Origin: Acidobacteriota bacterium
Lineage (GTDB): Bacteria; Acidobacteriota; Terriglobia; UBA7540
Direction: 5' to 3'
Assembly: GCA_021787735.1 (NCBI GenBank)
Contig: JAJYLL010000009.1
Location: 1 to 64,000, forward strand
DNA length: 64,000 nt
Shown here: positions 10,884-35,938 of the stretch, piece after piece
Numbering within the stretch: position 1 is the stretch's first letter
Layout of the letters: each line of letters starts with the position of its first letter
Made by a program: the position numbers and the translations under genes
Notes under the pieces: model-generated
What the model was told of the DNA's origin: nothing
The model's input: only the letters and a program-made list of their open reading frames with translations
The model's database searches: none

Positions 10884-12014
10884 TTAATTCACCGTTATTT
10901 CTCTCACGAGCGCCCCATCGTCGACCGCATCGGAATGGTTGGGACGTGCTCGATATACGGCAACCTGACGTCGTATGGTTTCCCAGGTTTCCTCAGGAAG
11001 CGACAGGAAAACGCGAACGACATCGGGATCAAACTGGTTCCCGGACTCGCGAATAATCTCATCGCGCGCAGTTTCAAAAGGCAAGGCCCGGCGGTAGGGG
11101 CGGTCTGATGTCATTGCGTCCAGGGTGTCGGCGACCGCGAAAATTCTTGCTCCGAGAGGAATTTCCTCTCCCATCAGTCCCTGCGGGTACCCAGCCCCGT
11201 CGTAGCGTTCCTGGTGCGCAAGGACGATTTTCGAAGCGGAGGCAAGAAAAGGAATGCGGCTGAGCAGTTCGTAGCCGATCCGCACGTGAGTCTGCATAAT
11301 GGTCATTTCTTCCGGTGTCAGCTTGCCTTTTTTCAGCAGGACCGAATCCGGTATGCCGATCTTGCCGATGTCGTGCAGGTAGGAGCCGCGGGCGATGGTC
11401 TTGAGTTGCTCATTGGTGCAACCGATGGCCCGGGCTATAGCCAGACAATAGAGACTTACGCGGCGCGAATGGCCGGCGGTTTCGGTGTCGCGAAGGTCAA
11501 GGGCGGCGCCCAGGGCTTCAAGGGTCTGGTCGTACGCGTGCTCAATGCGCTTCATTGCAACCTGAAGCTGATGTGTCCGTTGCTCGACCATCTCTTCCAG
11601 TTGGTGCCTGTATTTTTCCACTTCTGCTTCCAGAAACTTCTTATGCAACGCGCGGCGCAATGATTCCACCGCGGCTTCCAGGTGAAACGGCTTTACCAGG
11701 TAGTCGTCCGCACCATGCTTCATTGCCTCGACGGCAGTCCGGATGTCGTCTTCACCCGTGGCCATAACGAAGGCAAGATGAGGCTGCCGTTTTTGGATTT
11801 CCGTCAGGAGTTGCATGCCGGTCATGCCCGGCATTTTCAGGTCTGAAACCACCGCGTCGAATCGTTCCTTTTCCAGGCAGGCTAGCGCTGCTTCCCCGCT
11901 CGATCTTCCGAGCCAGTCAAAACCGCTTCGCTCAAGCTTTTCCCCCAGTATCTGCCAGACGGCACACTCATCGTCAACAAGCAGTATCCGGGGTTTGGAT
12001 TCTCGGTCAGCCAT
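10884..12014 (-). CDS. Response regulator with HD-GYP domain (putative c-di-GMP phosphodiesterase)
   Basis: Receiver domain (RILLVDDECAVWQIL...VVSDLKMPGMTG), coiled linker, HD motif SYLHDIGKIGIPD and HQERYDGAGYPQGL. Confidence 0.93.
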   Translation of the reverse strand: MADRESKPRILLVDDECAVWQILGEKLERSGFDWLGRSSGEAALACLEKERFDAVVSDLKMPGMTGMQLLTEIQKRQPHLAFVMATGEDDIRTAVEAMKHGADDYLVKPFHLEAAVESLRRALHKKFLEAEVEKYRHQLEEMVEQRTHQLQVAMKRIEHAYDQTLEALGAALDLRDTETAGHSRRVSLYCLAIARAIGCTNEQLKTIARGSYLHDIGKIGIPDSVLLKKGKLTPEEMTIMQTHVRIGYELLSRIPFLASASKIVLAHQERYDGAGYPQGLMGEEIPLGARIFAVADTLDAMTSDRPYRRALPFETARDEIIRESGNQFDPDVVRVFLSLPEETWETIRRQVAVYRARPNHSDAVDDGALVREITVN

Positions 12015-20106: not shown

Positions 20107-21774
20107 ATGGACCACGACGCCGTTGGACAAAGGACGATGCGAAAACTCTTATTGATGGCCTTGAGCCTTATCGGACTTTTTGATTCTGCTTACCTGTTGT
20201 GGGAGTACACTTCACCGGCCCACCCCATGGTTTGCATGGGAGGAGGTTGCGACGCCGTTCGAGCCAGCGCATACTCGCATATCGTCGGCCTGCCGGTACC
20301 CATTTTCGGCATATTCATGTACGGGTTCCTGGTGTTGCTTCTCTTCCTTTATCCTCTGCTGCCCACTTCGATTGCGCGCCTTACGCAAAGCAGTGTCCTG
20401 CTGATTTCAGGAGCGGCTTTCCTGTTTTCCATCTATCTGACCGGGCTTGAAGCCTTTGTGATTCATGCCTGGTGCGTGTGGTGCGTTGTGTCCGCGCTGC
20501 TGGTAACCGGTATTTTTCTTTTATCCATTATGGAACGTTCGCACCCGCCGAAGCCTCTGGAACCTGCTGAAGCGCTCGCTGCAGTACAGCGCAATTTCGC
20601 CCTGATCCTTTTCGGCTTTGTGCTGGGAGTCCCTGCCTTTATTTTTCTGACCCAGCATGGCAGCACAGCCCCTTCAAAGCCGCCAAGCCCAAAGGCGGTC
20701 GAGGCGCATATGATCCGCCCGGATACGCATTTGTATGGAAACCCGAACGCCAAGGTAACCATTGTGGAATTCGGGGACTTTAAGTGTCCCGCCTGCCGTC
20801 AGGCGGAATCAAGCGCCAAGCAGATCCGGGAGAAATTCGGCAACCAGATTCGTTTTGCGTTCCGGGAGTTTCCTCTTGTAGGGGTCCATCCCGAGTCCGA
20901 GAAAGCCGCGGAAGCCGCGGAATGTGCCGGCCAGCAAGGCGAGTTCTGGCAGGCAGTGGACATGTTCTATGAGCATCAGGATGACTTGAGCGTGTCTGCT
21001 CTCAACCGGTACGCAAGGGGAATGGGACTTGATTCCCAGAAGTTCGCGGCGTGCCTCCAGAATGGAACGATGGCGGAGCGCGTGACCCGCGACCTAACCG
21101 ACGGTCAAGCGTTGGGTGTCCACGCAACGCCGACCTTTTTCATTGACGGTCGAGAAATCGTGGGGCCTCTTCCTTATGATCAGTTCGCACAGTTGGTTGA
21201 AAACGAATTGAAATTAGCCGGCGTAGAGCAGGCCGGGCAGAGTGGAACTTCGAAACCAGCGGAAACGCCCGAATCTTTCCCGGCAGGGAAGGCCAAAACC
21301 GGCAGCAAGAAATCTGCTATGCAGCCGACCGGCGGTGGCTCCCAGGACACCATGCAGGTCTTGGGTGGGTCCAATCTCTTTGCTGGGCTCCAGAATTCCG
21401 CTGCGGCGTGTAACGAGGAGGAAGCAAAAAAGCGCCAGCCTAAAATGATCGATACGCCCCAGGCTGAGAAGATTTTTGGCGATCACTCGCAAGCACTATT
21501 TGTGGACGTTCGGACCGCAAAGGATTTCCAGTCGGGCCACATCCCCGGAGCCCTGAACATGCCCATCGATTCCTTTGAGCAGGAATGCAAACGGCTACCA
21601 AAGGACAAAACGATCGTGCTCTACGAGGCCGGAAAATCGTCCGGCGACATCTGCGCATTCAGCCGGTCAGCAGGCCGGGTCCTTCTTTCACAGGGTTATT
21701 CTTATTCCGATGTTAACGTGTATCGCGATGGTCTGGCTGGGTGGACTAAAGCAGGACTTCCCACCAAACGCTGA
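20107..21774 (+). CDS. VKOR - DsbA-like thioredoxin - rhodanese-like fusion protein
   Basis: VKOR TM domain with HAWCVWC; thioredoxin-fold FGDFKCPACRQAE...ATPTFFIDGREIVG; C-terminal rhodanese-like FVDVRTAKDFQSGHIPGALNMPIDSF. Confidence 0.9.
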   Translation: MDHDAVGQRTMRKLLLMALSLIGLFDSAYLLWEYTSPAHPMVCMGGGCDAVRASAYSHIVGLPVPIFGIFMYGFLVLLLFLYPLLPTSIARLTQSSVLLISGAAFLFSIYLTGLEAFVIHAWCVWCVVSALLVTGIFLLSIMERSHPPKPLEPAEALAAVQRNFALILFGFVLGVPAFIFLTQHGSTAPSKPPSPKAVEAHMIRPDTHLYGNPNAKVTIVEFGDFKCPACRQAESSAKQIREKFGNQIRFAFREFPLVGVHPESEKAAEAAECAGQQGEFWQAVDMFYEHQDDLSVSALNRYARGMGLDSQKFAACLQNGTMAERVTRDLTDGQALGVHATPTFFIDGREIVGPLPYDQFAQLVENELKLAGVEQAGQSGTSKPAETPESFPAGKAKTGSKKSAMQPTGGGSQDTMQVLGGSNLFAGLQNSAAACNEEEAKKRQPKMIDTPQAEKIFGDHSQALFVDVRTAKDFQSGHIPGALNMPIDSFEQECKRLPKDKTIVLYEAGKSSGDICAFSRSAGRVLLSQGYSYSDVNVYRDGLAGWTKAGLPTKR

Positions 21775-22129: not shown

Positions 22130-23611
22130 ATGCCATTTCTTATTGAAAACGTCACAACAGTTGTTCTTGCATTTTTCATTCTTGCTTTACTGGGGAACCT
22201 GTCTCTGGTCGGAATCGTTCTCCTTCGTCGGCGAAGGCGAGACAGGTTCTTTGCTCGCATTGACGGTTTGCGCGAGCAGTATGGCCCCGTGCTGGAAGCA
22301 GTCCTTTCCGGTTGCACGGCCTATGCCCAGGGACTTGAAACGCTGCGGCAGATCTCCTGCCCCGACCGCCTCTTTATGCTGGAGCAGCTTTGCCTTGAGA
22401 AGAGGCCGGCGCCTGCCCAGGAACCCGTCTTGAGGCGCCTTTGTGAAGACCTTGGCTTGGTTAAAATCTGGCAGCAGCGACTGATGGGCCAGATCGATCA
22501 GGCGTCCTTGCGCGAAGCTTTGGTTAACCCCCAGGGACTGCTGCGGCGGGTCAAGATGCTTCAGTTCCTGATTCGTTCCAAGAGCGCAGAAAATCTCGGT
22601 CTGATCCGGCATGAACCGAGCTGGCCTCTTTTGGTCAAGGCGCTGGAGGACCCGAACCCGGATATTCGCATGGTTGCCGTGCGTTCACTTGCGGCCATCC
22701 AGCACCCTGGCAGCTTTGTGCCACTGGTCGAACAGCTTCATAAGTCAGTTCTTGAGTCGGCGCCCGTCCTTTCCGTGCGGACCCTGAAAACCGCCCTAGT
22801 CAGCTTTCCATTGCGGGACGCTAGAGATTTGTTGCCCTCCCTGCGGCATCCGGACCCGCGCATTCGTTTTGTGGCCACGGACATTATCAGGGAAATGGTT
22901 GAGCGGGAAGCTGCCGACAATCCGGATTTTCTTCTGGACCAAAGAATCATGGGCGGGGAAATGGTTGAAATGTTTCTGAAGAATTTGCCCTTTGATACTA
23001 ATCCGGACGTGCGCGCCCGGTCTGCTCCGGTGATTGCGCACCTTGCGGACCAGCGGGTGGCGCCCACATTGTTTACTCTGCTTGAAGACTCTGCATGGTT
23101 TGTTCGTCTTCACACCGTAAGGTCTCTGGCCAATCAAAGGTTCCTGCCCCATGCCAGCAGGATTGCGGCAACTCTGACGGACCCGAACTGGCGCGTGCGG
23201 GAAACTGCGGTCAGAGCTTTGCGGGGTTTCGGGCGCGCGGGGGTGGACCTGTTGACGCTTCATTTCCTTGCCACGAAAGACCGGTACAGCCGGGAGCAGG
23301 TGGCGGACGGGTTTCAGCGCACCGGCCTGATTCCTGAACTGCTTGCGTGCTGTGTAGAAACAGGCAATGGCAGGGAAACGGCAGTCCTTAAGAACCTGGC
23401 GGAAATGGGCAAGACCAGCTACATGATTTCGGTGATTGAACGCCGGAAAGGGAACGCGGAACTGCGCAGGAATTTCCTTATGCAGTTCGGCCGGTATCCC
23501 GACCCGCAGATCCATCACTGGGTTGAGCAGATGGCCGAGCAGGAGTCCGACTTTGACATGCGGGCGCTTGCGCAGGAGACCCTGGCCGCGCATTCACGGG
23601 AGGAAATGTAG
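22130..23611 (+). CDS. Membrane-anchored HEAT-repeat protein
   Basis: N-terminal TM (TTVVLAFFILALLGNLSLVGIVLLRRRRR), repeats such as LVKALEDPNPDIRMVAVRSLAAIQ and LTDPNWRVRETAVRALRGFG. Confidence 0.88.
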   Translation: MPFLIENVTTVVLAFFILALLGNLSLVGIVLLRRRRRDRFFARIDGLREQYGPVLEAVLSGCTAYAQGLETLRQISCPDRLFMLEQLCLEKRPAPAQEPVLRRLCEDLGLVKIWQQRLMGQIDQASLREALVNPQGLLRRVKMLQFLIRSKSAENLGLIRHEPSWPLLVKALEDPNPDIRMVAVRSLAAIQHPGSFVPLVEQLHKSVLESAPVLSVRTLKTALVSFPLRDARDLLPSLRHPDPRIRFVATDIIREMVEREAADNPDFLLDQRIMGGEMVEMFLKNLPFDTNPDVRARSAPVIAHLADQRVAPTLFTLLEDSAWFVRLHTVRSLANQRFLPHASRIAATLTDPNWRVRETAVRALRGFGRAGVDLLTLHFLATKDRYSREQVADGFQRTGLIPELLACCVETGNGRETAVLKNLAEMGKTSYMISVIERRKGNAELRRNFLMQFGRYPDPQIHHWVEQMAEQESDFDMRALAQETLAAHSREEM

Positions 23612-23615
23612 TTCC

Positions 23616-25034
23616 ATGGAACTGTGGCGGCAGGTCTTTATTTACGGGATGAACGTGTTCAACCTGCTCATCGTCTCGTATTTTTTTATTGCGAACGGCG
23701 TCTATACGCTGCTGATGGTGATATCTCTGGCGGCGGTTTGGCTTTACAACCGTCGTCTTGCCTACCAGGACTTGGATGATATCCGGGAATCGCCTGTAAC
23801 GCCTCCCGTAACCATTGTGATTCCGGCGTGGAATGAAGAGCAGATCATCGTGGAAACAACGGAGTCCACGCTCCAGACCGACTACCCGGAACTGGAAGTA
23901 GTAGTCGTGGACGACGGTTCAAACGATACCACGCTCAAGCGGCTGATTGACAATTTTCATCTGGTAAAGATGGACCTGATCTATCGCCCGCAAATTCCGA
24001 CTCAGACCGTCCGGGGTTTCTATATGAACCCGGACCTTCCCACCCTGCTGGTTGTGAGCAAGGAAAACGGTGGCAAGCCGGACGCTTTGAACGTGGGCGT
24101 CAACATCTGCCGCACTCCCTATTTCTGCACGTTGGATTCAGACTCGATCCTGGAGCGGGACGCGCTGCTGCGCCTGATGCGTCCGGTGATCCACTCCCCC
24201 ATCAACACGGTTGTCAGCGGCGGCATCGTCCGGGTTATGAACGGTTGCCAGGTGCGCGACGGGCGGGTGACAAAAGTAGAGTTGCCTAAGTCGCGCCTGG
24301 AGCGTTTTCAGGTAGTGGAATACCTGCGAAGCTTCCTCTTTGGGCGTACCGGCTGGGATTTGCTGGGTGGGACCATGATTGTTTCCGGAGCGTTTGCGGT
24401 TTTCCACCGCGATACCGTAATGGAGGCAGGCGGGTTTGCGCACGATACGGTGACCGAGGATATGGACTTGGTCGTCCAGTTGCATCACTGGGCCTCGAAA
24501 CACAATCGGCGTATCCGGATGTCTTTTACTTCGGATCCTGTCTGCTGGACGGAATGTCCATCCACCCTCAGGATGCTGGGCAATCAGCGTCGGCGCTGGC
24601 AGCTTGGCCTGTGTCAAACCTTATGGAAACACTCGGAAATGCTGTTTAACCGGAAATATGGAATGGTGGGCAATTTCAGCTTTCCTTTTCACTTCTACGT
24701 GGAAGCGCTGGGAGCCGTGGTGGAATTTCTGGGCTATTTTATGGTTCCGCTGGCAATCATTTTCGGCATGGTGCCTGCAATGCTCTACTTGCTTTTTGTC
24801 CTCCTTAGCCTCGCTTACGGTGGTCTGCTCTCTATTGGCGCCGTGCTGCTGGAAGAATTGACCTACCGCCGTTATCCCAGCTACCGCGACCTTACTAGGT
24901 TGCTCTGGTATGCCTTTATCGAAAACCTTGGCTACCGCCAGCTCATCCTCTACTACCGGTTTGAGGGCGTGGTGCGGTTCCTGACCGGCTACGGGCGTTG
25001 GGAAAAGGTTACCCACGTTGGAATTGCAAACTAG
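23616..25034 (+). CDS. Family 2 glycosyltransferase, processive polysaccharide synthase type (PgaC/BcsA-like)
   Basis: VTIVIPAWNEEQIIVETTESTL, VVVDDGSNDTT, LDSDSIL, TEDMDLVVQLH, QRRRWQLG motif, N- and C-terminal TM segments; 4 nt after the HEAT gene. Confidence 0.93.
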   Translation: MELWRQVFIYGMNVFNLLIVSYFFIANGVYTLLMVISLAAVWLYNRRLAYQDLDDIRESPVTPPVTIVIPAWNEEQIIVETTESTLQTDYPELEVVVVDDGSNDTTLKRLIDNFHLVKMDLIYRPQIPTQTVRGFYMNPDLPTLLVVSKENGGKPDALNVGVNICRTPYFCTLDSDSILERDALLRLMRPVIHSPINTVVSGGIVRVMNGCQVRDGRVTKVELPKSRLERFQVVEYLRSFLFGRTGWDLLGGTMIVSGAFAVFHRDTVMEAGGFAHDTVTEDMDLVVQLHHWASKHNRRIRMSFTSDPVCWTECPSTLRMLGNQRRRWQLGLCQTLWKHSEMLFNRKYGMVGNFSFPFHFYVEALGAVVEFLGYFMVPLAIIFGMVPAMLYLLFVLLSLAYGGLLSIGAVLLEELTYRRYPSYRDLTRLLWYAFIENLGYRQLILYYRFEGVVRFLTGYGRWEKVTHVGIAN

Positions 25035-25350
25035 GCATGTCAAGTGCCACGCCTGAAGAACCGAATTGGCCTTTCTCTGCTTTTCACCCTTAAACGTTCC
25101 TGGCGTTGTCGCGCAAATATCGGAAGAAAAAGTAAGAGCAAGGGAGTCTCGCTCACCTTGGTCAAGTTCTCCCTAAAGTGCGTGGCTGAATTCGACGATA
25201 TCCGATTGAAAGGATGCTCGAAATGGTTCGTTCTGCCGGCCCGTTTGGGTGTACGGGATTGAGGCCATCATTATTTCCTGAGAAACGAATGTTGCCGTGC
25301 AAAGCGCCGCTGGCGATTAACTGCACTTTGTGAAGGAAGACTTGGTGCTC

Positions 25351-27810
25351 ATGGGGGTTTTTATCAGGAATCTCTCGCTTACAGCTTTCCTGCTGATAGT
25401 GAGTATCTGCGCCTATGGGTTTTTGTCAGCGCAGCTGGCGGGTAACTCTCCCCACAGCATGGCAAGAACCGGCTTCGAAGATAGCCAATACGAGTTATCG
25501 TGCGAGCTCTTTCTAAAGGGCTGTTCATCCAACCCATCTCTGGTGGGGCTGCCTAGTGCGGCTGTTTCAGCCCAGACTGGCATTCCCAATCTGCGGAAAT
25601 CTTTGCATCTGACCTTGGCCGCAAGGCTGCACAATGGGTACTTTCAGGTTCCGCAAGACGGCTTGTGGAGAACGGATTACATCGCAGGCGTGGACATTGG
25701 TCCTGCCACGCCGGGCCATTTTGCAACTGAACCGCCCAGCGACCCAGCCGTCTATGCCAGTTGGTTTGACAAGATCGGGGTGATGGGAGCGAATACCATT
25801 CGTGTTTACACTTTGCTCCCGCCCGGTTTTTACCAAGCTCTGCTTGATTACGACCGAGCACATCCGCAGCAGCCTTTGTATCTGTTCCAGGAGATCTGGC
25901 TCGAAGATCCGCTGGACGGAAATCTTTTTGATCCCGGCTTTACCGCGGATTACCAGAAGGAGGTTCGCGACGTGGTGGACGCCATCCACGGCGATGCGAA
26001 TATCCCTCCTCGTCCCGCCCATGCGAGCGGAATTTTCAGTGCCGACGTCTCACCTTACGTTATGGGATGGGTCATTGGCCGTGAGATCGAGCCTCACGTG
26101 GCCGTCATTACTAACGCTCATCATCCTGAACCTACGAATTTCACGGGTCGATTCCTCTCCGTGCAAGGCGCGAACGCCACCGAGTTGTGGCTGACCATGC
26201 GGATAGATGAGACGCTCCAATACGAAGCGAGTCGATACCATTGGCAGCGGCCTATCTGTTTTGTGAACTGGCCTCCGCTTGACCCACTGAAGCATCCGAG
26301 TACGATACCTCAGCGGGAGGAGATGCGGCTCAGAGAGAAAGTGTTGGGCCAGGAATTTGCGCCGCTTACAACCGTTCCGGACGATCTGGATGTTGTTTCC
26401 CTCGACGAGGAGAAGATTACGCCCTTGTCGGATGACCCGGCAGGTTATTTCGCGATGTACCATATTTACCCTACGTACCCGGACTTTATCTTTCTCGATC
26501 CTGCCTACCAGAAAGCGAAGGACGACGAGGGGCCGAACCGTTATTGGGGCTACCTTCAGGCACTCCGGGCCCATTACCGGAAGACGCCGGTGCTCGTGGG
26601 CGAGTACGGCCTCTCAACGAGTATTGGCATCGCGCACTTCAGCCCTGACGGCATGAACCACGGGGGCTTCAGTGAGCTTCAGCAGGGAAAGGCCTTGGCA
26701 CGGCTCACGGTGGACATTGAGAAGGTTGGGTACGCCGGAGGGATCATTTTCGAGTGGATCGACGAGTGGTGGAAGCACAATTGGATCGCTGCTGACTTTG
26801 AAATCCCCTTTGAGCGAAAGCCACTTTGGCACAACGACCTCGATCCCGAACAGTCATACGGTCTTATGAAATTCGTGCCCGCAAACCACCGCGAATGGAA
26901 AGAACTCTGGCACGCTCCCACTGAGGTTGATGTTCCCGGCCACTCTGTGCCGCCAGACCACATTGGGAAAGTCGTCAGCGTTCAAGCATCCTGGGATCCC
27001 TCCGCCCTGTACCTTAACATTAAGACAAATCTTCCGCCGGGCCAAAGGCCAGACTGGTCCAAGGTGAGATATTTCGTCGCGCTGAATACCTGTGGTGTTC
27101 CCTGTGGCTCCGGTTTGCTCGCCACGGCGGGTGATGTTGAGATGAAAGATGGGGCGAATTTTCTGGTGTCCATCAAAGGCCCCAATGATACGAAGCTGCT
27201 GATCGCAGCGAATTACAATCCATACCGCAAGCAGCCATTAGGGAAGGTCCCAGGCATCACGACGGTTGAGATCCCGCCGAATCTGCAAACGCACTTCGAT
27301 CCCAGAGGTTCGTTTGGAGAACAAGTTGTAGAAACCAATCGAAGGATCTACGGTGAAAACGGGAGTGTATTTCCTTCAGTCGAGTACAGTCGAAGCCCGC
27401 TCTATTACGGCAATTTCAGCCTCCGAGCGAGTGATTACGATTCGCTGGGTCAATTCTTTTACGATCCATCGAGCGCAACGGTTCGTCTTCGCCTTTCCTG
27501 GGGCCTCCTTCTCGCGCTTGATCCCTCGGAGGGCCTTGTCTACAGGGGCACGGATAGCCACGGAAAACCTTTTGGCAAGCTTTCCGGGGAAATCCGGATT
27601 GCGGTTGTTTCTGCCGAAGTGTCAACGCCCGGAGCCGCGGCAGTGCCATTTCAGATCGTGGCGGCCAAGCCTTCTGGAGAGGTGATTGATCAAGGTCTCG
27701 CCTTGCCGTGGCCGACGTGGTCATACGTGTCTTCGGAGGCGGTTCTGAAGCGAAGTTACCCGGCGGTAGAAGCCGTCTTCCGAAAGATAACCGCACATCC
27801 TTTCCACTAA
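25351..27810 (+). CDS. Secreted glycoside hydrolase-like TIM-barrel protein with C-terminal beta domain
   Basis: Signal peptide MGVFIRNLSLTAFLLIVSICAYGFLSAQ; YFQVPQDGLWRTDYIAGVDIGPATPGHF; GANTIRVYTLLPPGFY; GWVIGREIEP; LVGEYGLST; GGIIFEWIDEWWKHNW. Confidence 0.7.
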   Translation: MGVFIRNLSLTAFLLIVSICAYGFLSAQLAGNSPHSMARTGFEDSQYELSCELFLKGCSSNPSLVGLPSAAVSAQTGIPNLRKSLHLTLAARLHNGYFQVPQDGLWRTDYIAGVDIGPATPGHFATEPPSDPAVYASWFDKIGVMGANTIRVYTLLPPGFYQALLDYDRAHPQQPLYLFQEIWLEDPLDGNLFDPGFTADYQKEVRDVVDAIHGDANIPPRPAHASGIFSADVSPYVMGWVIGREIEPHVAVITNAHHPEPTNFTGRFLSVQGANATELWLTMRIDETLQYEASRYHWQRPICFVNWPPLDPLKHPSTIPQREEMRLREKVLGQEFAPLTTVPDDLDVVSLDEEKITPLSDDPAGYFAMYHIYPTYPDFIFLDPAYQKAKDDEGPNRYWGYLQALRAHYRKTPVLVGEYGLSTSIGIAHFSPDGMNHGGFSELQQGKALARLTVDIEKVGYAGGIIFEWIDEWWKHNWIAADFEIPFERKPLWHNDLDPEQSYGLMKFVPANHREWKELWHAPTEVDVPGHSVPPDHIGKVVSVQASWDPSALYLNIKTNLPPGQRPDWSKVRYFVALNTCGVPCGSGLLATAGDVEMKDGANFLVSIKGPNDTKLLIAANYNPYRKQPLGKVPGITTVEIPPNLQTHFDPRGSFGEQVVETNRRIYGENGSVFPSVEYSRSPLYYGNFSLRASDYDSLGQFFYDPSSATVRLRLSWGLLLALDPSEGLVYRGTDSHGKPFGKLSGEIRIAVVSAEVSTPGAAAVPFQIVAAKPSGEVIDQGLALPWPTWSYVSSEAVLKRSYPAVEAVFRKITAHPFH

Positions 27811-27820
27811 GGGAATTCCT

Positions 27821-30514
27821 ATGAATGTTTCCTGGTTAAAGAGAATCCTCGTCAGCATCGGGCTGTTGGCGGTTGGGCTCCGGCCTGCAGTCTGCCGTCC
27901 TCCGCAAGCCCAGGCTGTCACACCACCACGACGTACGATTAGCGGACCTGCGAAGGCGGGTGCTGTTCCTGCCAACAGCACCAGTGAACGTCAGGCGCTC
28001 CTCGCCCTTGCTGAGCGAAGTGAGGCTAAGGGGAATTTCCCGGAGGCAATAAAGCAGTACCGCGCATACCTTTCTCAATATCCCGATGACGATCAAGCGA
28101 GATTTCGCCTGGCTACGATCCTTGGTTGGAACAAACAATTCACTGAATCCGAGGCCATGCTGCGAAACTGGGTTGCAAGGCACCCCGCAGACGCTGACGG
28201 CATCCTTCAGCTCGGAAGGGTATTGAGTTGGGAGGAGAGGTACCCCGAGTCCGCAAACGAGTACAAGCACGCCTTAGCCTTGCGCCCTGCCAACGTGCGG
28301 GCACGAACGGAGTACGCAGGGGTGCTAGTGATCCTCCAAAACTACAGTGAAGCCGTGCGTCAGTTCCAGGAAGTCCTCAATGTTCAGCCAACGAACGCGG
28401 AGGCCGAGGTTGGGATCATCCGGACACGGATAGCAATGGGAGGGACCGAACGGGCGCAGACGGCGTTTACCGACTTCGCCCGGCATCATCCCCAGGATCC
28501 TCGCCTTTCTGCACTCAGCAGCCAGTTGAGGGAGGCCCAACTGGCGCGGGCCGCCTCACTTCCTTCCCCGCAACAGAGTCTTCAGGCGCTTGTCCAACAG
28601 GACCCGCGGAGTGTCCGCTTGTGGCTTGCCCTTGCGGACCAGTACCTGGCAAAACGCGACTTCGAAGCGGCGGCAGCCGAGCTCCGGACGGCGTCGAAGC
28701 TTCAACCCGGCAACGACGCCTTGTTGATCCGGCGCGCGAGGGTTTTGAGTTGGGCAAAAAAGTACGATGAATCTGTTCGATTGTACAAGGAGTGGCTGAC
28801 AAAATATCCCCGGGACCCACAGGGAGAGATAGAACTGGCGAGAGTTTTGAGCTGGTCAAAAAACTATGACGGCTCCGTGGCTGAGTACCAGAAAATCTTG
28901 CGCTGGGACCCGAACAACCGGCAGGCACGACTCGAAATGGCAAGAGTGCTGGGATGGGACAAGCAATACGGACGCGCACTTGCCGAGCTGCAGGTTTTGC
29001 TCAAGGCCAAACCGAACGAGTTCGACGCACTTCTGCTTCAGGCCCGGATTTATTCCTACCAGACCCGGTGGAAGGATTCTCTCCGCGTTTACAACGCAGC
29101 GCTTCAGATCCGACCCGCAGATCGGGCCGCTCTAACCGGAAAAGCGCAGGTGCTTGTCTGGTCCGATGACCCGGCTGCCGCCCGTGCCTTGCTCGAGAAT
29201 TTGCACAGGAGAAACCCCAAAGATGTCAGGGCGCTGGTCGTGTTGGCATCGGATGAAAACGCTTTGCGCCGGCCTGACCTGGCGCTGAAACTACTCCGAG
29301 AGGCGGACGCCCTCGCGCCGGGCGATAATGACGTGGCGACAGTTCGCGACGCAATCGAGGCGGGGCTGCGTCCCGAGCTGACGATCGGGTGGAATTACAT
29401 GCGAGACACTGAAGGGTTGAACGCCTGGCGATACCAGGTCGCCGACTTCCGGTTCAGCCTCAGTCCCCGAATTCGGAGTTTCATAACTGCGGATATCCTT
29501 CCGACCTCCGCTCTAGCGAGCATTTTTGCGGTCCCTGTTTCCGGCACCTCACTGTATGCCGCGCGTTTGCCCGAAGGCCCGGTTCCCGCACCGGGATTTC
29601 TTCAAGAGAGCAATCTGCCGTCGGAGGCCCTCATCCCTGGAAGCGACAGGTTCTTTCAATGGGCGACCGAAATTGAAGGAGGCGCCACGGTTCGGCTCAA
29701 TCACTGGTTCTCTTGGACCGCCGGCGCAGGGGTTGCGACGTTGCATCACGGGACGGGTGACCTCGGAGCAGGTGCATTTCCAGGTTTGCGCACCCACCCC
29801 ATCTACGATGCCGGCATAACCTTCTACACATCCCACTGGGAGTTTGCGGTTGGGTCGTCCCGGCACTACTTGGCCTACACGCCGAGAGCGATTGAGGAGG
29901 AGATTCACGCCGATGAGCAAAACGTGACGATCGCGTGGAGTCCCGACCAGCGCTCTCATTTTGCAATTACAGGTTACCATCGGCAAATCTCGCCGCCATT
30001 CGAAATTCAGGACCTCCCGCTTCCCGGGTCAGGGGGAGTCTTTCATGGCGACGTGTTCACGATGCATGGGAACGGCGCAACGTTCAGGGCGACCAGAGAC
30101 ATTGTGCGAAGAGAATATGGCACTCTGACCCTCGGTTATGATGGCATTGTCTTTGGTTACACGCACCCCGCGGGCCTCCCCTTCAGCACATACTTTACGA
30201 ACCCCGGCGTCTTTACACCCAGCTTCTACCAGCGTCATGTCGCGACGGCAGAGCTGAGTCTAAGTTTTCCCTACCATGTCCGGTGGAACCTTCACGGCTC
30301 GGCCGGTTCCCAGCAGATCTTTCAGGGGTCTGATTTTTCGTTCAGCTCGACGGCGGGAACACGGTTCGATTTTCCTTTTGGACCGAAGACAACGCTAAGC
30401 CTTGGCTACGATTATTTCAACACGGCATCGGCCACGCAGGTGGTTACCGTGGTGACACGTGGGGTTGCTTATCACAGCAGCAGCGTCAGCGCCAGAATGC
30501 ATTTCAGGTTCTAG
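27821..30514 (+). CDS. TPR-repeat protein with C-terminal outer-membrane beta-barrel (PgaA/BcsC/YaiO-like exporter candidate)
   Basis: Signal peptide; many TPR units (e.g. DDQARFRLATILGWNKQFTESEAMLRNWVARHPADADGILQLGRVLSWEERYPESANEYKHALAL); beta-rich second half ending SVSARMHFRF with terminal Phe. Confidence 0.82.
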   Translation: MNVSWLKRILVSIGLLAVGLRPAVCRPPQAQAVTPPRRTISGPAKAGAVPANSTSERQALLALAERSEAKGNFPEAIKQYRAYLSQYPDDDQARFRLATILGWNKQFTESEAMLRNWVARHPADADGILQLGRVLSWEERYPESANEYKHALALRPANVRARTEYAGVLVILQNYSEAVRQFQEVLNVQPTNAEAEVGIIRTRIAMGGTERAQTAFTDFARHHPQDPRLSALSSQLREAQLARAASLPSPQQSLQALVQQDPRSVRLWLALADQYLAKRDFEAAAAELRTASKLQPGNDALLIRRARVLSWAKKYDESVRLYKEWLTKYPRDPQGEIELARVLSWSKNYDGSVAEYQKILRWDPNNRQARLEMARVLGWDKQYGRALAELQVLLKAKPNEFDALLLQARIYSYQTRWKDSLRVYNAALQIRPADRAALTGKAQVLVWSDDPAAARALLENLHRRNPKDVRALVVLASDENALRRPDLALKLLREADALAPGDNDVATVRDAIEAGLRPELTIGWNYMRDTEGLNAWRYQVADFRFSLSPRIRSFITADILPTSALASIFAVPVSGTSLYAARLPEGPVPAPGFLQESNLPSEALIPGSDRFFQWATEIEGGATVRLNHWFSWTAGAGVATLHHGTGDLGAGAFPGLRTHPIYDAGITFYTSHWEFAVGSSRHYLAYTPRAIEEEIHADEQNVTIAWSPDQRSHFAITGYHRQISPPFEIQDLPLPGSGGVFHGDVFTMHGNGATFRATRDIVRREYGTLTLGYDGIVFGYTHPAGLPFSTYFTNPGVFTPSFYQRHVATAELSLSFPYHVRWNLHGSAGSQQIFQGSDFSFSSTAGTRFDFPFGPKTTLSLGYDYFNTASATQVVTVVTRGVAYHSSSVSARMHFRF

Positions 30515-30813: not shown

Positions 30814-31599
30814 TCATTCTCCGATGCCCTGGGCCAGAAATCCACCATCGACAGGGATTGTTGCGCCGGTCACAAAGCTCGCGCTGTCTGAGGCAAGAAA
30901 GATTGCCGCACCTTTGATTTCCTCCACCTGTCCGAACCGCTTCATCGGAGTGCGAGAGAAGATGGAGGCCTTTCTTTCAGGCTGATTGATGATTTTCCGG
31001 TTAAGGTCCGTTTCAAAAACTCCCGGAGCGATGGCATTAACGGTAATGTCGTATTTGGCCCATTCCGCCGCCAGACAGCGCGTGATTTGCAGCACTCCGC
31101 CCTTGCTGGCGGCATAAGGTGCAACCTCATGCGCGCTGACAAACGAAGCAATCGAAGAGACATTAATAATCCGCCCGTATTGCTGATCCTTCATCACGCG
31201 GCCAACCATCTGGCAGGTGTTCCAAACACCCTTCAGGTTGATTTCCATGATCTGGTTCCATAGGCTGTCCTCAACTTCAAGCGACGGGACTCGCTTTGTG
31301 ACGCCTGCGGAATTCACCATGATGTCGATGTGCCCCATCTGATCGAGCATCCTGTCGATCACCGGCCGGATCTGGCCGCGGTCGGTGACATCGGCTGTTA
31401 ACTCCAGGGTCCTGCTTCCGGCCGATCTGATTTCCTGCGCGGTTTGCTGAACCTGTTCTGCGCGACGGCCCACTGCGACCACGTCGGCGCCGGCTTCCGC
31501 AAAGCCGATAGATATGGCTTTCCCGAGTCCACTGGTTCCGCCAAATACAAGCGCGTGTTTCCCTTCAAGACTGAGCCCTTTGTAATAGGACAAGATCAT
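30814..31599 (-). CDS. SDR family oxidoreductase (gluconate 5-dehydrogenase/KduD-like)
   Basis: GKHALVFGGTSGLGKAISIGFAEAG, NSAGV, YAASKGG, FLASDSASFVTGATIPVDGGF. Confidence 0.9.
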   Translation of the reverse strand: MILSYYKGLSLEGKHALVFGGTSGLGKAISIGFAEAGADVVAVGRRAEQVQQTAQEIRSAGSRTLELTADVTDRGQIRPVIDRMLDQMGHIDIMVNSAGVTKRVPSLEVEDSLWNQIMEINLKGVWNTCQMVGRVMKDQQYGRIINVSSIASFVSAHEVAPYAASKGGVLQITRCLAAEWAKYDITVNAIAPGVFETDLNRKIINQPERKASIFSRTPMKRFGQVEEIKGAAIFLASDSASFVTGATIPVDGGFLAQGIGE

Positions 31600-31809
31600 T
31601 CCTTTCGGAAGAAGGATATACGAGTGCCATGCTACCATTACGGGAAAAAGCCAGGCAACAAGCGGGTGCGCTTCTCTTGCCTGATTGCAGCCGGGGATGT
31701 TAGTCTTCACTTTACTCACACCCGTGGAGAGACTGGGCGGGGGCGGGACCTGACTTGAAATAAATCCGCGCAAAAACAGAATCTCCTCATTTCAACAGAT
31801 TGGAACCTG

Positions 31810-32661
31810 ATGGGAGGATATATCGCAATGGAATTAGCAGAATTGACTCGAATGTATGATTTTACCGGACGAACAATAGTCGTTACGGGAGGTGCCGGCA
31901 TTCTTGGCGGAGAGATTGCCCAGGCGCTCGTGGGATGCGGAGCCAATGTTGCGATCCTTGACCTGAATCTAGATTCGGCAAAGGGGATTCTGGAAAAGAT
32001 GGGACCGCGCTCAAGCCAGGTGATCACGGTGAAAACCAACGTCCTGGACACTGAGAGCCTTCGCCAGGCATCACAGGCCGTCCTGGAGAAATTTGGCACA
32101 GTCGATTGCCTGGTGAATGCAGCAGGAGGGAACAAGCCTCAGGCAACCACCAGCGCCGACCTGTCTTTTTTTAATCTGCCAGCCGACGCATTGCGTTGGG
32201 TTTTCGACCTCAACATCATCGGGACCGTTCTTCCTTCGCAGGTGTTCGGCAAGATCATGGCAGAGAAAGGCGACGGAACTATTCTCAACATTTCGTCGAT
32301 GAACGCTTTTCGCCCCTTGACGCGCATCCCTGCCTATTCGGCCGCGAAGGCCGGTGTCAGCAACTTTACGCAGTGGCTGGCGGTGCATCTAGCGCAATTG
32401 TATTCGACAAGAATTCGAGTGAACGCCATCGCTCCCGGTTTCTTCATGACGCAGCAGAACAGATTTCTCCTGACTGACGAAAAGACGGGTGAATTGACCC
32501 CCCGCGGCAAATCGATCATCGATCACACTCCGATGGCGCGCTTCGGCAATCCGGAAGACCTGTTCGGGGCCGTTTTGTGGCTGCTTTCGCCGGCATCAGC
32601 GTTTGTGACGGGGGTCATTGTGCCGATCGACGGAGGTTTTTCGGCGTATAGTGGAGTTTAG
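31810..32661 (+). CDS. SDR family oxidoreductase (D-mannonate oxidoreductase-like)
   Basis: GRTIVVTGGAGILGGEIAQAL, NAAGGNKPQATT, YSAAKAGVSNFTQWLAVHLAQ, APGFFMTQQNRFLL. Confidence 0.87.
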   Translation: MGGYIAMELAELTRMYDFTGRTIVVTGGAGILGGEIAQALVGCGANVAILDLNLDSAKGILEKMGPRSSQVITVKTNVLDTESLRQASQAVLEKFGTVDCLVNAAGGNKPQATTSADLSFFNLPADALRWVFDLNIIGTVLPSQVFGKIMAEKGDGTILNISSMNAFRPLTRIPAYSAAKAGVSNFTQWLAVHLAQLYSTRIRVNAIAPGFFMTQQNRFLLTDEKTGELTPRGKSIIDHTPMARFGNPEDLFGAVLWLLSPASAFVTGVIVPIDGGFSAYSGV

Positions 32662-32725
32662 GGGCTGACGTAACCAATGAAATTTTAGGGGAACCCTTGA
32701 ACGAGGCTCTTGAAGGAGGCGTGCA

Positions 32726-33994
32726 ATGGTAATAGGACAGGGATTTGCTGACCGCCATCTGACCAGCGAAAAAATCAGCCGAACCGTTCGCGATGGTGTG
32801 AGCACGCTGGCCGTTGACGGCAAGCGCGTGCTGATCATCATCCCGGATGGCACTCGCACCATGCCCATGCCGCTAATGTTTGACCTGTTCGAGCAGGAAC
32901 TCTCAGGGCGCGTGGCATCTCTCGATTACCTGGTAGCGCTGGGCACGCATCCCATGATGGACGACGAGCATCTCGGCAAGCTGGTGGGCCGGAAGGTGGT
33001 TGACGGGAAAGTCGGGAAGTGCAACATCTTCAACCACCATTGGGAGATCGCTGAGAATTTCACGACTCTCGGCGTGATTCCGGCGCAGGAGATCGGCGAG
33101 ATCACAGGCGGCGTGCTGGCCAGGGACATTCCCGTCCGGCTGAACAAGATGATCTTGGATTATGATCAGATCATTATCTGCGGTCCGGTTTTTCCGCATG
33201 AAGTCGTTGGTTTCTCCGGCGGGAACAAATACTTTTTCCCGGGCATCGGCGGATCGGAAATCATCAACCAGACCCATTGGGTTGGAGCGCTGATGACGAA
33301 CTACAAGATCATCGGCGCCGGCTACACGCCCGTGCGAGCTATTATCGACCGCGCCGCAGGTTTTATAGATCGGCCCGTCGCTTGCTTTGCGCTGGTGGTG
33401 ACTCATGCCGGTTTTGAAGGGTTGTACTTCGGCACGGCGCAGGAGGCTTGGAAGGCGGCTTCGGACCTTTCCGCCAAGAAGCACATCATCTATGTAAAGA
33501 AGCCCTACAAACGTGTGCTCTCCGTGATGCCGACGCTCTATGACGATCTGTGGACCGGGGCAAAAGGAATGTACAAGATGGAGCCCGCCGTGGCCGACGG
33601 TGGCGAAGTGGTGATCTATGCGCCTCACATCACCGAAGTGAGTTACACACACGGCGGGATCATCGAGGAAATCGGATACCACTGCCGGGATTATTTCGTG
33701 GCGCAGTGGGACAAGTTCAAGGATTATCCCGGCGGCGTACTGGCGCACTCGACTCACGTCAAGGGCCTGGGCACATACGACGCGGCCACCGGCAAAGAGG
33801 CCCCTCGCATTCAGGTGACGCTGGCGACGGGCATCTCCAAAGAGAGATGCGAGCGCATCAACCTCGGGTATCTTGATCCTGCAAGCGTCAACCCGGATGA
33901 ATGGAAGGGCCGCGAGGACGAAGGCATTCTGCTCGTGCCGCGCGCCGGCGAAATGCTCTATCGCGTGCAGGAAAGCGTATCAAAAGCCGCCTAG
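32726..33994 (+). CDS. Lactate racemase domain (LarA/DUF2088) family protein
   Basis: VLIIIPDGTRTMPMPLMFDLF, LGTHPMMDDEHLGKLVG, GPVFPHEVVGFSGGNKYFFPGIGGSEIINQTHW; GFSGG-K and His positions match the LarA pattern. Confidence 0.88.
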   Translation: MVIGQGFADRHLTSEKISRTVRDGVSTLAVDGKRVLIIIPDGTRTMPMPLMFDLFEQELSGRVASLDYLVALGTHPMMDDEHLGKLVGRKVVDGKVGKCNIFNHHWEIAENFTTLGVIPAQEIGEITGGVLARDIPVRLNKMILDYDQIIICGPVFPHEVVGFSGGNKYFFPGIGGSEIINQTHWVGALMTNYKIIGAGYTPVRAIIDRAAGFIDRPVACFALVVTHAGFEGLYFGTAQEAWKAASDLSAKKHIIYVKKPYKRVLSVMPTLYDDLWTGAKGMYKMEPAVADGGEVVIYAPHITEVSYTHGGIIEEIGYHCRDYFVAQWDKFKDYPGGVLAHSTHVKGLGTYDAATGKEAPRIQVTLATGISKERCERINLGYLDPASVNPDEWKGREDEGILLVPRAGEMLYRVQESVSKAA

Positions 33995-34018
33995 ATCTGA
34001 ATGCGATGGCCGCACCCT

Positions 34019-35938
34019 TCAGCCCTGCAGGTGCTCTGCCAGCCACACGACATAACGGCTGTTGCGCTGTCGCACCTCGGCCAGCAGTTCTTCCGGCAAC
34101 TCGTCAATCTTTTCCTTGAAGAAGCGATGATCGCCGTCGGGCGAATCGATGTCGCGGCTGCCGACCAGGTTCCCCAGCCAGAAAACCAGGAACAGATTGC
34201 CGTCCACGCGGCCGCGCGAGGCGTCGCCGAGGTCGTATTCAAGGCCCATGGACACGTATTTCGCGGCAAGTTCGCTTTCATAGCCAAAGGCCCCGGTAGC
34301 GGCAAAATCATTGGCCCGCTTCACCATGCGCTCATAAAGTTTTCGCCAGTGGGAACCTGCGGGCTGGCTCCGCAACACGTCGAAGAGCTGCAACTGAAGT
34401 TCACCGGAGATTTTGTAATTCACGCGGCCTGCTGTTGATTTTCCAATCCGCTCCAGGACTTCCTGCTGCTTCCCGCTGCCGGAATGGATACTGAGCGTGG
34501 TGTCAAAACTCCTGGCCACGTCCGCGAGTTCCGCGACACGCGTCGCAAGTTCCTCGAGCGGCTTTCCGCCAAAATCTCTCTCAACCCGCCCCGGGAGTTC
34601 CGGCCACATCTTGTGATGGCAGTAGTCCAGCAGGCCCACGCCATCCGCCGGCGAGGTGGCCATTGCTACGGGATACGCCTGCCGCTTCTTGAAGCCCAGG
34701 TTGGGCGGGCAAAGCTGGGCGGCCCTGCCGCGTGCCTTCAGCCAGTGCATGTAAAACAGGAGCTCTTTGACAGTGGTCAGCGTCTCTGCTTCGTCGATAG
34801 ACGGTTCGAAATCGAACGCAGTGTCCAGCCTCGCCTCGGCCTTGGCCTTGATGATGTAGCCGTAGAGTTCTTCGTTTAGCTTCAGACTCTGGCCGAACTT
34901 GACGCCAAGGCGAAGGATTTCTGAATCAGTGAATGTATAGTTCCTGCCTTCGAGATCGAAGGACTTTGAGAATTCACTCCGGAGCCATTTCTGCTCAGCA
35001 GCAGTAAAAATTTGCTGGAATCTTTCATTGACGACAGAATCGCTCCAGGGATCCGGATGCCGCGAGTCGGCTTGCAGTTCGAATAGGCGTGAAGTATCTG
35101 TGGTGAATTTGGTGTAGCCGGCGGCGTGGCGGATGGCAGTCTTCACCATTTCAACCGACTGCGCAATCTCCTCCGGGTTGTTGCCGGAGACGATGAAGTG
35201 GTCGGCCTCCGCGTTATAACCCGCGCGCCAGCCGGCGCGAATGGCGGCCCACAGCCCGGCGTGGTAAAGATGCCGGATGGAAACGCGTGTGTGCCCGGTC
35301 GCCACAGGGTTCTCGCCGTCGCGCTGCTCGATCGCGTCCTCGGTGGTCATTTCGCGGGTTGCCGATAGCTGGACCGTGGAGGCCATGTTGACGTGCAGCT
35401 TGTCCAGGATGGTCCTGAACGCATCAAAGACGGCCGGCAAGCTGATTTCCGGATGCCGATTGCCTGCTGCGATGGCAGGCTGCGAGCGTTGTGGCCTGGG
35501 CAGAAACGCCCGGTCAATCTGCTCGGCGAACTTGCGGATGGTTTCGTGGTCGTAGCTGCCGAAAGGAATGAAGCTGAGACGAATTTCTTTCCCCTCAACC
35601 TGAACGTGCTCCGTGCGAATGGGTTCGGCCAGCAGATGGCCCGCTGAAGACGAGTCCACGCCTACATGCATCAACAGGGGCCTGGTTTTGCCATCCGCCG
35701 CGGCATCCACTGCCAGATAACAATTCGCGCCGTTCGCGGGATCCTTTGCAAGAGAACCCGCGTAGGGCTTGAGGCTCGCGAGGTTGAGACCGGCAATGTC
35801 TTTCGCGATATCCTCGCGGGATTTTGCGTCGATCGCACCGTCCCGTGTGTGTTGAACGATTTTGGCCACAACTGCTACAGCTTCATTGAAGTTGAACCGC
35901 GGTTCCATAGCTCTCCTGATCAAAATTGGATTTCTCAA
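34019..35938 (-). CDS. UxaE-like (tagaturonate/fructuronate epimerase family) protein
   Basis: GYNAEADHFIV, KFTTDTSRLFEL, TAFDFEPSIDEAETLTTVKELLFYMHWLKARG, LSIHSGSGKQQEVLERIG, NSRYVVWLAEHLQG. Confidence 0.68.
   Translation of the reverse strand: MRNPILIRRAMEPRFNFNEAVAVVAKIVQHTRDGAIDAKSREDIAKDIAGLNLASLKPYAGSLAKDPANGANCYLAVDAAADGKTRPLLMHVGVDSSSAGHLLAEPIRTEHVQVEGKEIRLSFIPFGSYDHETIRKFAEQIDRAFLPRPQRSQPAIAAGNRHPEISLPAVFDAFRTILDKLHVNMASTVQLSATREMTTEDAIEQRDGENPVATGHTRVSIRHLYHAGLWAAIRAGWRAGYNAEADHFIVSGNNPEEIAQSVEMVKTAIRHAAGYTKFTTDTSRLFELQADSRHPDPWSDSVVNERFQQIFTAAEQKWLRSEFSKSFDLEGRNYTFTDSEILRLGVKFGQSLKLNEELYGYIIKAKAEARLDTAFDFEPSIDEAETLTTVKELLFYMHWLKARGRAAQLCPPNLGFKKRQAYPVAMATSPADGVGLLDYCHHKMWPELPGRVERDFGGKPLEELATRVAELADVARSFDTTLSIHSGSGKQQEVLERIGKSTAGRVNYKISGELQLQLFDVLRSQPAGSHWRKLYERMVKRANDFAATGAFGYESELAAKYVSMGLEYDLGDASRGRVDGNLFLVFWLGNLVGSRDIDSPDGDHRFFKEKIDELPEELLAEVRQRNSRYVVWLAEHLQG

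Follow-up and report, generated by a model that had tools for sequence, protein, structure and literature searches.

Only a small number of synthase-dependent exopolysaccharide systems are known, several of them switched by cyclic di-GMP (c-di-GMP). The ones to which the locus described here can best be compared are the Pga/Ica system for poly-N-acetylglucosamine (PNAG), the Bcs system and, in E. coli, the pairs YaiP-YaiO and NfrA/NfrB, the last of which is annotated as a c-di-GMP-activated glycosyltransferase with an exopolysaccharide outer-membrane protein. We have analyzed a window of 64,000 nucleotides (nt) from a metagenome-assembled genome of an Acidobacteriota bacterium (assembly GCA_021787735.1, contig JAJYLL010000009.1, positions 1 to 64,000). 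A preliminary description of this DNA had pointed to four co-directional genes, for a HEAT-repeat protein, a processive family 2 glycosyltransferase (GT2), a glycosidase-like protein (GHx) and a tetratricopeptide-repeat (TPR) protein with a C-terminal barrel, and had recognized in them the logic of Pga/Bcs/Alg-type secretion. The four open reading frames (ORFs) are indeed present and all read on the plus strand. The secretion reading is supported by the conserved adjacency of the HEAT and GT2 genes, and no characterised operon matches. In our judgement the four genes probably specify a machine for synthase-dependent exopolysaccharide production that forms a class of its own, one apparently not described before. 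The features of the locus are:

22130..23611, plus strand: HEAT-repeat protein, 493 aa; PF13646/PF02985; N-terminal transmembrane (TM) helix
23616..25034, plus strand: processive-type GT2 polysaccharide synthase, 472 aa; Pfam GT2; conserved motif residues
25330..27810, plus strand: GHx, TIM-barrel glycosidase-like protein with a C-terminal domain, predicted secreted or membrane-anchored, 826 aa; conserved family, N-terminal hydrophobic segment, profile match to 9fz9
25615..26889, plus strand: TIM-barrel part of GHx; candidate acid/base E252, candidate nucleophile E425
27821..30514, plus strand: TPR-repeat protein with a predicted C-terminal outer-membrane barrel, 897 aa, last residue F; PF14559
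29318..30511, plus strand: predicted barrel region of the TPR protein; alternating segments, F/Y C-termini of homologs, hhalign to operon equivalents

The HEAT stop codon (23609-23611) and the GT2 start, the ATG at 23616, are separated by only 4 nt (TTCC), as had been noted before; the ORF in the program-made list runs back to a TTG inside the HEAT gene, and the ATG was used instead. The next two gaps measure 295 nt (GT2/GHx) and 10 nt (GHx/TPR protein). The reported lack of PilZ, PgaD-like and PgaB-like deacetylase domains holds for the four proteins, searched with Pfam and NCBIfam, and for the scanned neighbouring proteins. No Rfam family was found in the window, and promoter-like sites are no commoner in it than expected by chance.

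The HEAT-GT2 pair across genomes

The GT2 has the hallmarks of the processive membrane enzymes of synthase-dependent exopolysaccharide systems (D, DxD, TED and QxxRW). The predicted motifs can be read in its translation as VDDGS, LDSDS, VTEDMD and QRRRW, hydrophobic segments are found at both ends, and it matches the Pfam families PF00535 (2.1e-19) and PF13641 (6.1e-19). Moreover, D174, D176, D282 and Q324-R325-x-R327-W328 are invariant across 20 homologs. Its partner matches the HEAT families PF13646 (3e-26) and PF02985 (1.4e-20) and carries a single predicted N-terminal TM helix (aa 11-29), in agreement with the anchored HEAT protein described earlier; no NCBIfam equivalog fits either protein. 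The helix is preceded by 0 and followed by 7 K/R residues, an N-terminal hydrophobic helix occurs in 21 of the 22 scanned HEAT homologs, and in most of these positive charges follow it. By the positive-inside rule, and thus from composition, the repeats are predicted to be cytoplasmic and to adjoin the catalytic domain of the GT2; those around D351 (LTDxxWxVRxxA) are the best conserved. The most likely role of the HEAT protein is therefore that of a regulatory subunit or scaffold on the cytoplasmic side. Of the two roles initially considered for it, the topology favours the regulatory (or scaffold) one and disfavours a periplasmic co-polymerase.

The association of the two genes appears very general. 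The HEAT protein was found in 35 of 61 genomes, including that of the window (E 1e-10 or better), and in 19 of the 20 larger loci the GT2 gene follows immediately; most of these 20 loci also encode a TPR-barrel protein, with GHx in between in 8. A search with a GT2 profile, in which HEAT was disregarded, found the family in 62 of 297 sampled Acidobacteriota genomes. In 57 of the 59 examined loci the gene immediately upstream, on the same strand, is a HEAT gene, and the two exceptions are the lowest-scoring matches and second copies in genomes that have a linked copy as well; the profile was made from HEAT-linked members, by which more distant GT2s, linked or unlinked, could escape it. For comparison, only 1 of 34 other GT2 loci of Acidobacteriota showed a HEAT match. 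A suspected HEAT-GT2 fusion (L175) proved to be an assembly gap of N and was rejected.

The phyla beyond Acidobacteriota were sampled via plasmid records, and here the pair was found in Mesorhizobium, Devosia, Erythrobacter, Legionella, Emticicia, Bacteroides, Deinococcus, Planococcus, Paenibacillus and three haloarchaea, that is, in Alpha- and Gammaproteobacteria (Pseudomonadota), Bacteroidota, Deinococcota, Bacillota and Halobacteria. Among the inspected plasmid matches HEAT was missing only beside a weak match in Kocuria, a deacetylase-GT2 fusion. The expected adjacency in relatives is thus conserved far past close kin. HEAT-GT2 pairs also occur on three IMG/VR contigs classed as viral (L075, L076 and L077), which may be phage-borne, prophage flanks or misbinned.

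When E. coli PgaC, YaiP and NfrB were included in a tree, all 82 HEAT-linked GT2s grouped in a single clade (split support 0.959), from which these three proteins and 40 other GT2s are excluded. Two HEAT-less paralogs (L263 and L264) lie outside this clade but nearest to it; in an earlier tree, from which the E. coli proteins were absent, the same two fell inside the best split. The genomes of both also carry a HEAT-linked copy. Considering that the linkage is far above chance and that the linked enzymes form one clade, these data point to a single old partnership. The genes downstream are less constant. In two congeners the flanks are shared and the GT2 has 89-90% identity, yet GHx is absent and the TPR protein is shorter and only 23-24% identical; the downstream cassette is therefore exchanged while HEAT-GT2 stays put.

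A third partner is found upstream. A lone CheY-like receiver precedes the HEAT gene in at least 46 of the 59 Acidobacteriota loci, a lower bound as 30 of the loci span only 1.5 kb upstream of the GT2. Moreover, a receiver lies near HEAT-GT2 in Mesorhizobium, Devosia, Erythrobacter, Emticicia and all three haloarchaea. In the lineage and family of the window itself no receiver is present at the locus, and for this reason we do not claim the receiver step for the window. Some 10 kb from the operon (10884-12014, minus strand) the window does encode a response regulator that carries an HD domain (PF13487) and may be a c-di-GMP phosphodiesterase.

The glycosidase-like and TPR-barrel proteins

GHx has no match in Pfam or NCBIfam. 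The description of a secreted TIM-barrel glycosidase-like protein nevertheless gained support, as the TIM-barrel profile of its family aligns with the GH2-type catalytic domain of a solved structure (9fz9, E 8.6e-5) and a hydrophobic segment is found at the N-terminus (aa 6-24). The likeness to the GH2-type entries 9fz9, 9g5g and 9g4n concerns the stretch around the second catalytic glutamate of GHx and the D-x-W motif that follows, whereas the confident alignment spans only about 90 residues. The candidate acid/base is E252 (motif GREIEP in the window, codon 26083-26085) and the candidate nucleophile E425 (motif GEYG, codon 26602-26604). Among 42 members E252 (in a GREWEP motif) is kept in 34 and E425 (in an EFG motif) in 35, and the window copy keeps both. 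A first alignment had hinted at a pseudo-enzyme, which was rejected for the window copy after this comparison of 42 sequences. GHx is thus a candidate for the extracytoplasmic hydrolase or lyase that synthase-dependent systems have at their loci. In 9g4n, a sibling entry of 9fz9, an alanine aligns with E425, which suggests that the depositors mutated a catalytic residue; none of the three codes is mentioned in the full-text papers searched, a coverage outside of which most subscription journals and preprints fall. A single-sequence structure model of GHx reached a mean predicted local distance difference test score (pLDDT) of 33.

The family spans Acidobacteriota, Deinococcus, Paenibacillus and Planococcus, with the plasmid cases adjoining HEAT-GT2, and its presence in monoderms shows that it is independent of an outer membrane; no relative was found on viral contigs. 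Within the 297-genome sample, leaving out the genome of the window, 28 of the 29 genomes with GHx also have the GT2 family (Fisher p 3.6e-21), and in 22 of these the two lie on one contig less than 5 kb apart. The other acidobacterial GHx proteins of the first alignment carry an extra N-terminal TM-TPR part that the window copy does not have. In Planococcus (L073:224-3736) a CotH-kinase gene (PF08757) and a DUF4956 gene lie directly ahead of GHx-HEAT-GT2.

Of the 897-aa protein, the N-terminal TPRs (PF14559, 8e-40) and the final F stand as described. The C-terminal barrel is favoured by the sequence pattern and the operon equivalents, and is not confirmed by a structure model. More specifically, the region has 16 alternating segments versus 8.8 in shuffles (z 3.2), and F or Y is the last residue in 15 of 16 homologs. 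In other lineages the same place in the operon is taken by a YaiO barrel (PF19413, up to 194 bits) or a PgaA barrel (PF21197, 29.2 bits, cut-off 27). The barrel of the window itself scores only 13.2 bits against YaiO, and the family profile of the TPR protein aligns with the operon-equivalent proteins at 89.8% probability (hhalign), a modest support as TPR columns are included. An outer-membrane barrel is thus likely on these patterns. In some relatives a membrane-anchored protein of 318-337 aa is encoded between GHx and the TPR-barrel gene (L036:12086-13042, L037:13702-14715, L038:8394-9380, L039:6425-7417 and L040:7796-8791), with a phosphatase-like HC-x5-R signature (HCYLGKHR) followed by TPRs, of which Pfam detects only the TPRs.

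Further genes flank the operon. Downstream (30814-35938) lie two short-chain dehydrogenase/reductase (SDR) genes, a Lar_N protein and a tagaturonate epimerase (UxaE), together resembling uronate catabolism; the SDR gene at 31810 has a counterpart of 88-90% identity beside the locus in both congeners. At 20107-21774 one protein combines VKOR, DsbA-like thioredoxin and rhodanese domains, and several same-family relatives likewise have it upstream of the pair.

A proposed machine and its alternatives

We propose that the GT2 polymerises a sugar at the cytoplasmic face and threads the chain through the inner membrane. The HEAT protein, anchored next to this enzyme with its repeats on the cytoplasmic side, would be a nearly obligatory subunit with a regulatory or scaffolding role. 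The lone CheY-like receiver of most relatives could dock on the HEAT protein, in which case phosphorylation, and not c-di-GMP acting via PilZ, would switch synthesis. Outside the inner membrane GHx may trim or hydrolyse the chain, and the TPR-barrel protein would export it through the outer membrane. A wider proposal can be put forward only tentatively: HEAT-GT2 might be an ancient synthase core, common to Bacteria and Archaea, whose synthase is turned on by a cytoplasmic HEAT scaffold under the control of the stand-alone phospho-receiver. If true, the enzyme itself rather than transcription would be controlled, by a two-component equivalent of the c-di-GMP/PilZ switch.

Several observations weigh against the proposed exopolysaccharide machine. 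Considering the 295-nt gap, HEAT-GT2 and GHx-TPR may form two separate transcripts, and a sugar-nucleotide gene is absent from the four-gene operon. GHx is missing from both congeners searched and from about half of the GT2-bearing genomes and is therefore accessory, and in several GHx members from the window's own family one of the two catalytic positions, or both, is lost. The model of the TPR-barrel protein, run like that of GHx on a single sequence, has a mean pLDDT of 45 and falls below 50 in the barrel, and no predicted structure was obtained for the complex or the barrel.

The locus could alternatively be a diverged PNAG system, in which the GT2 is PgaC-like, GHx replaces the hydrolase of PgaB, the TPR-barrel protein is PgaA and HEAT replaces PgaD. 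PgaC/IcaA is in fact the best NCBIfam match of the GT2, but its 116.7 bits are far under the cut-off of 422.3. Likewise, E. coli PgaC is the closest of three E. coli GT2s to the GT2 profile (136.5 bits, versus 63.6 for YaiP and 22 for NfrB), yet it lies outside the clade. The PgaA barrel on some operon equivalents would suit a PNAG system, as would the GlmS and nucleotidyltransferase genes that come after HEAT-GT2 in Halosolutus and would fit an amino sugar. However, neither a deacetylase nor PgaD was found in the proteins scanned, and the GHx profile gave no match to E. coli PgaB. On balance we consider a PNAG identity improbable. We think it equally doubtful that the pair makes a glycan for another purpose (a glycolipid, surface protein or wall glycan) with the TPR-barrel protein as a receptor or assembly factor instead of an exporter. 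The pair does occur without an outer membrane in Planococcus, Paenibacillus and haloarchaea, and the structure model of the barrel was uninformative; against this, the Q-x-x-R-W processivity motif is invariant, and diderms repeatedly carry a TPR/YaiO or PgaA-type barrel next to the pair, in the arrangement of known secretion systems. A less drastic alternative accepts the exopolysaccharide machine and makes HEAT purely structural, for instance a factor for the insertion or stability of the synthase. That HEAT is retained in the absence of a receiver, for example in the window's family, would fit this, whereas the close adjoining of the receiver in most loci, bacterial and archaeal, would not; such a restricted role seems rather unlikely to us, though a more serious candidate than the two preceding ones.

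Comparison with described systems

No characterised family or operon matched the locus in NCBIfam, the tree or the full-text literature. Identity of the GT2 with PgaC, CelA, NfrB or YaiP was rejected on scores and tree. A literature search for HEAT repeats with exopolysaccharide, synthase or response regulator, and also for YaiO, gave nothing relevant in the full-text papers, a coverage that leaves room for a prior report. Within it, the HEAT-GT2 partnership is apparently undescribed.

The resemblance to Pga/Ica lies in the presence within one locus of a processive GT2, an extracytoplasmic hydrolase (in the window a candidate) and a TPR protein with an outer-membrane barrel (in the window a predicted one), whereas the window has an extra HEAT subunit and a GT2 of another clade, and its GHx and its lack of PgaD and a deacetylase set it apart as outlined above. 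The PgaA model matches the TPR protein at 74.7 bits versus a cut-off of 366.65, on the TPR positions. BcsA shares the motif logic, and solved BcsA is a distant sequence match of the GT2, but the latter has no PilZ domain and scores 48.9 bits with the CelA model, versus a cut-off of 699.1. NfrA/NfrB combines a GT2 with a large outer-membrane partner, as is predicted for the window, yet that locus has no HEAT gene, and no c-di-GMP domain was seen in the four proteins of the window. YaiP-YaiO also joins a GT2 to a barrel, and YaiO adjoins HEAT-GT2 in several phyla, but the E. coli locus is without a HEAT gene; NfrB and YaiP both fall outside the clade.

PgaC was found over its cut-off in 1 of 198 Acidobacteriota genomes, versus the 62 of 297 for the HEAT-linked GT2 family. 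The analysis thus describes a widespread synthase clade that has a fixed partner and a linked glycosidase-like family without a name, and to which most relatives add a dedicated receiver; this clade reaches one-membrane bacteria, two-membrane bacteria and archaea. HEAT-GT2 is a concrete candidate source of surface polymers in Acidobacteriota, and the receiver makes it a candidate for a new switch of a polymer synthase. Judged by the features tested, the system is of the broad synthase-dependent kind and distinct from Pga, Bcs, NfrAB and YaiP-YaiO.

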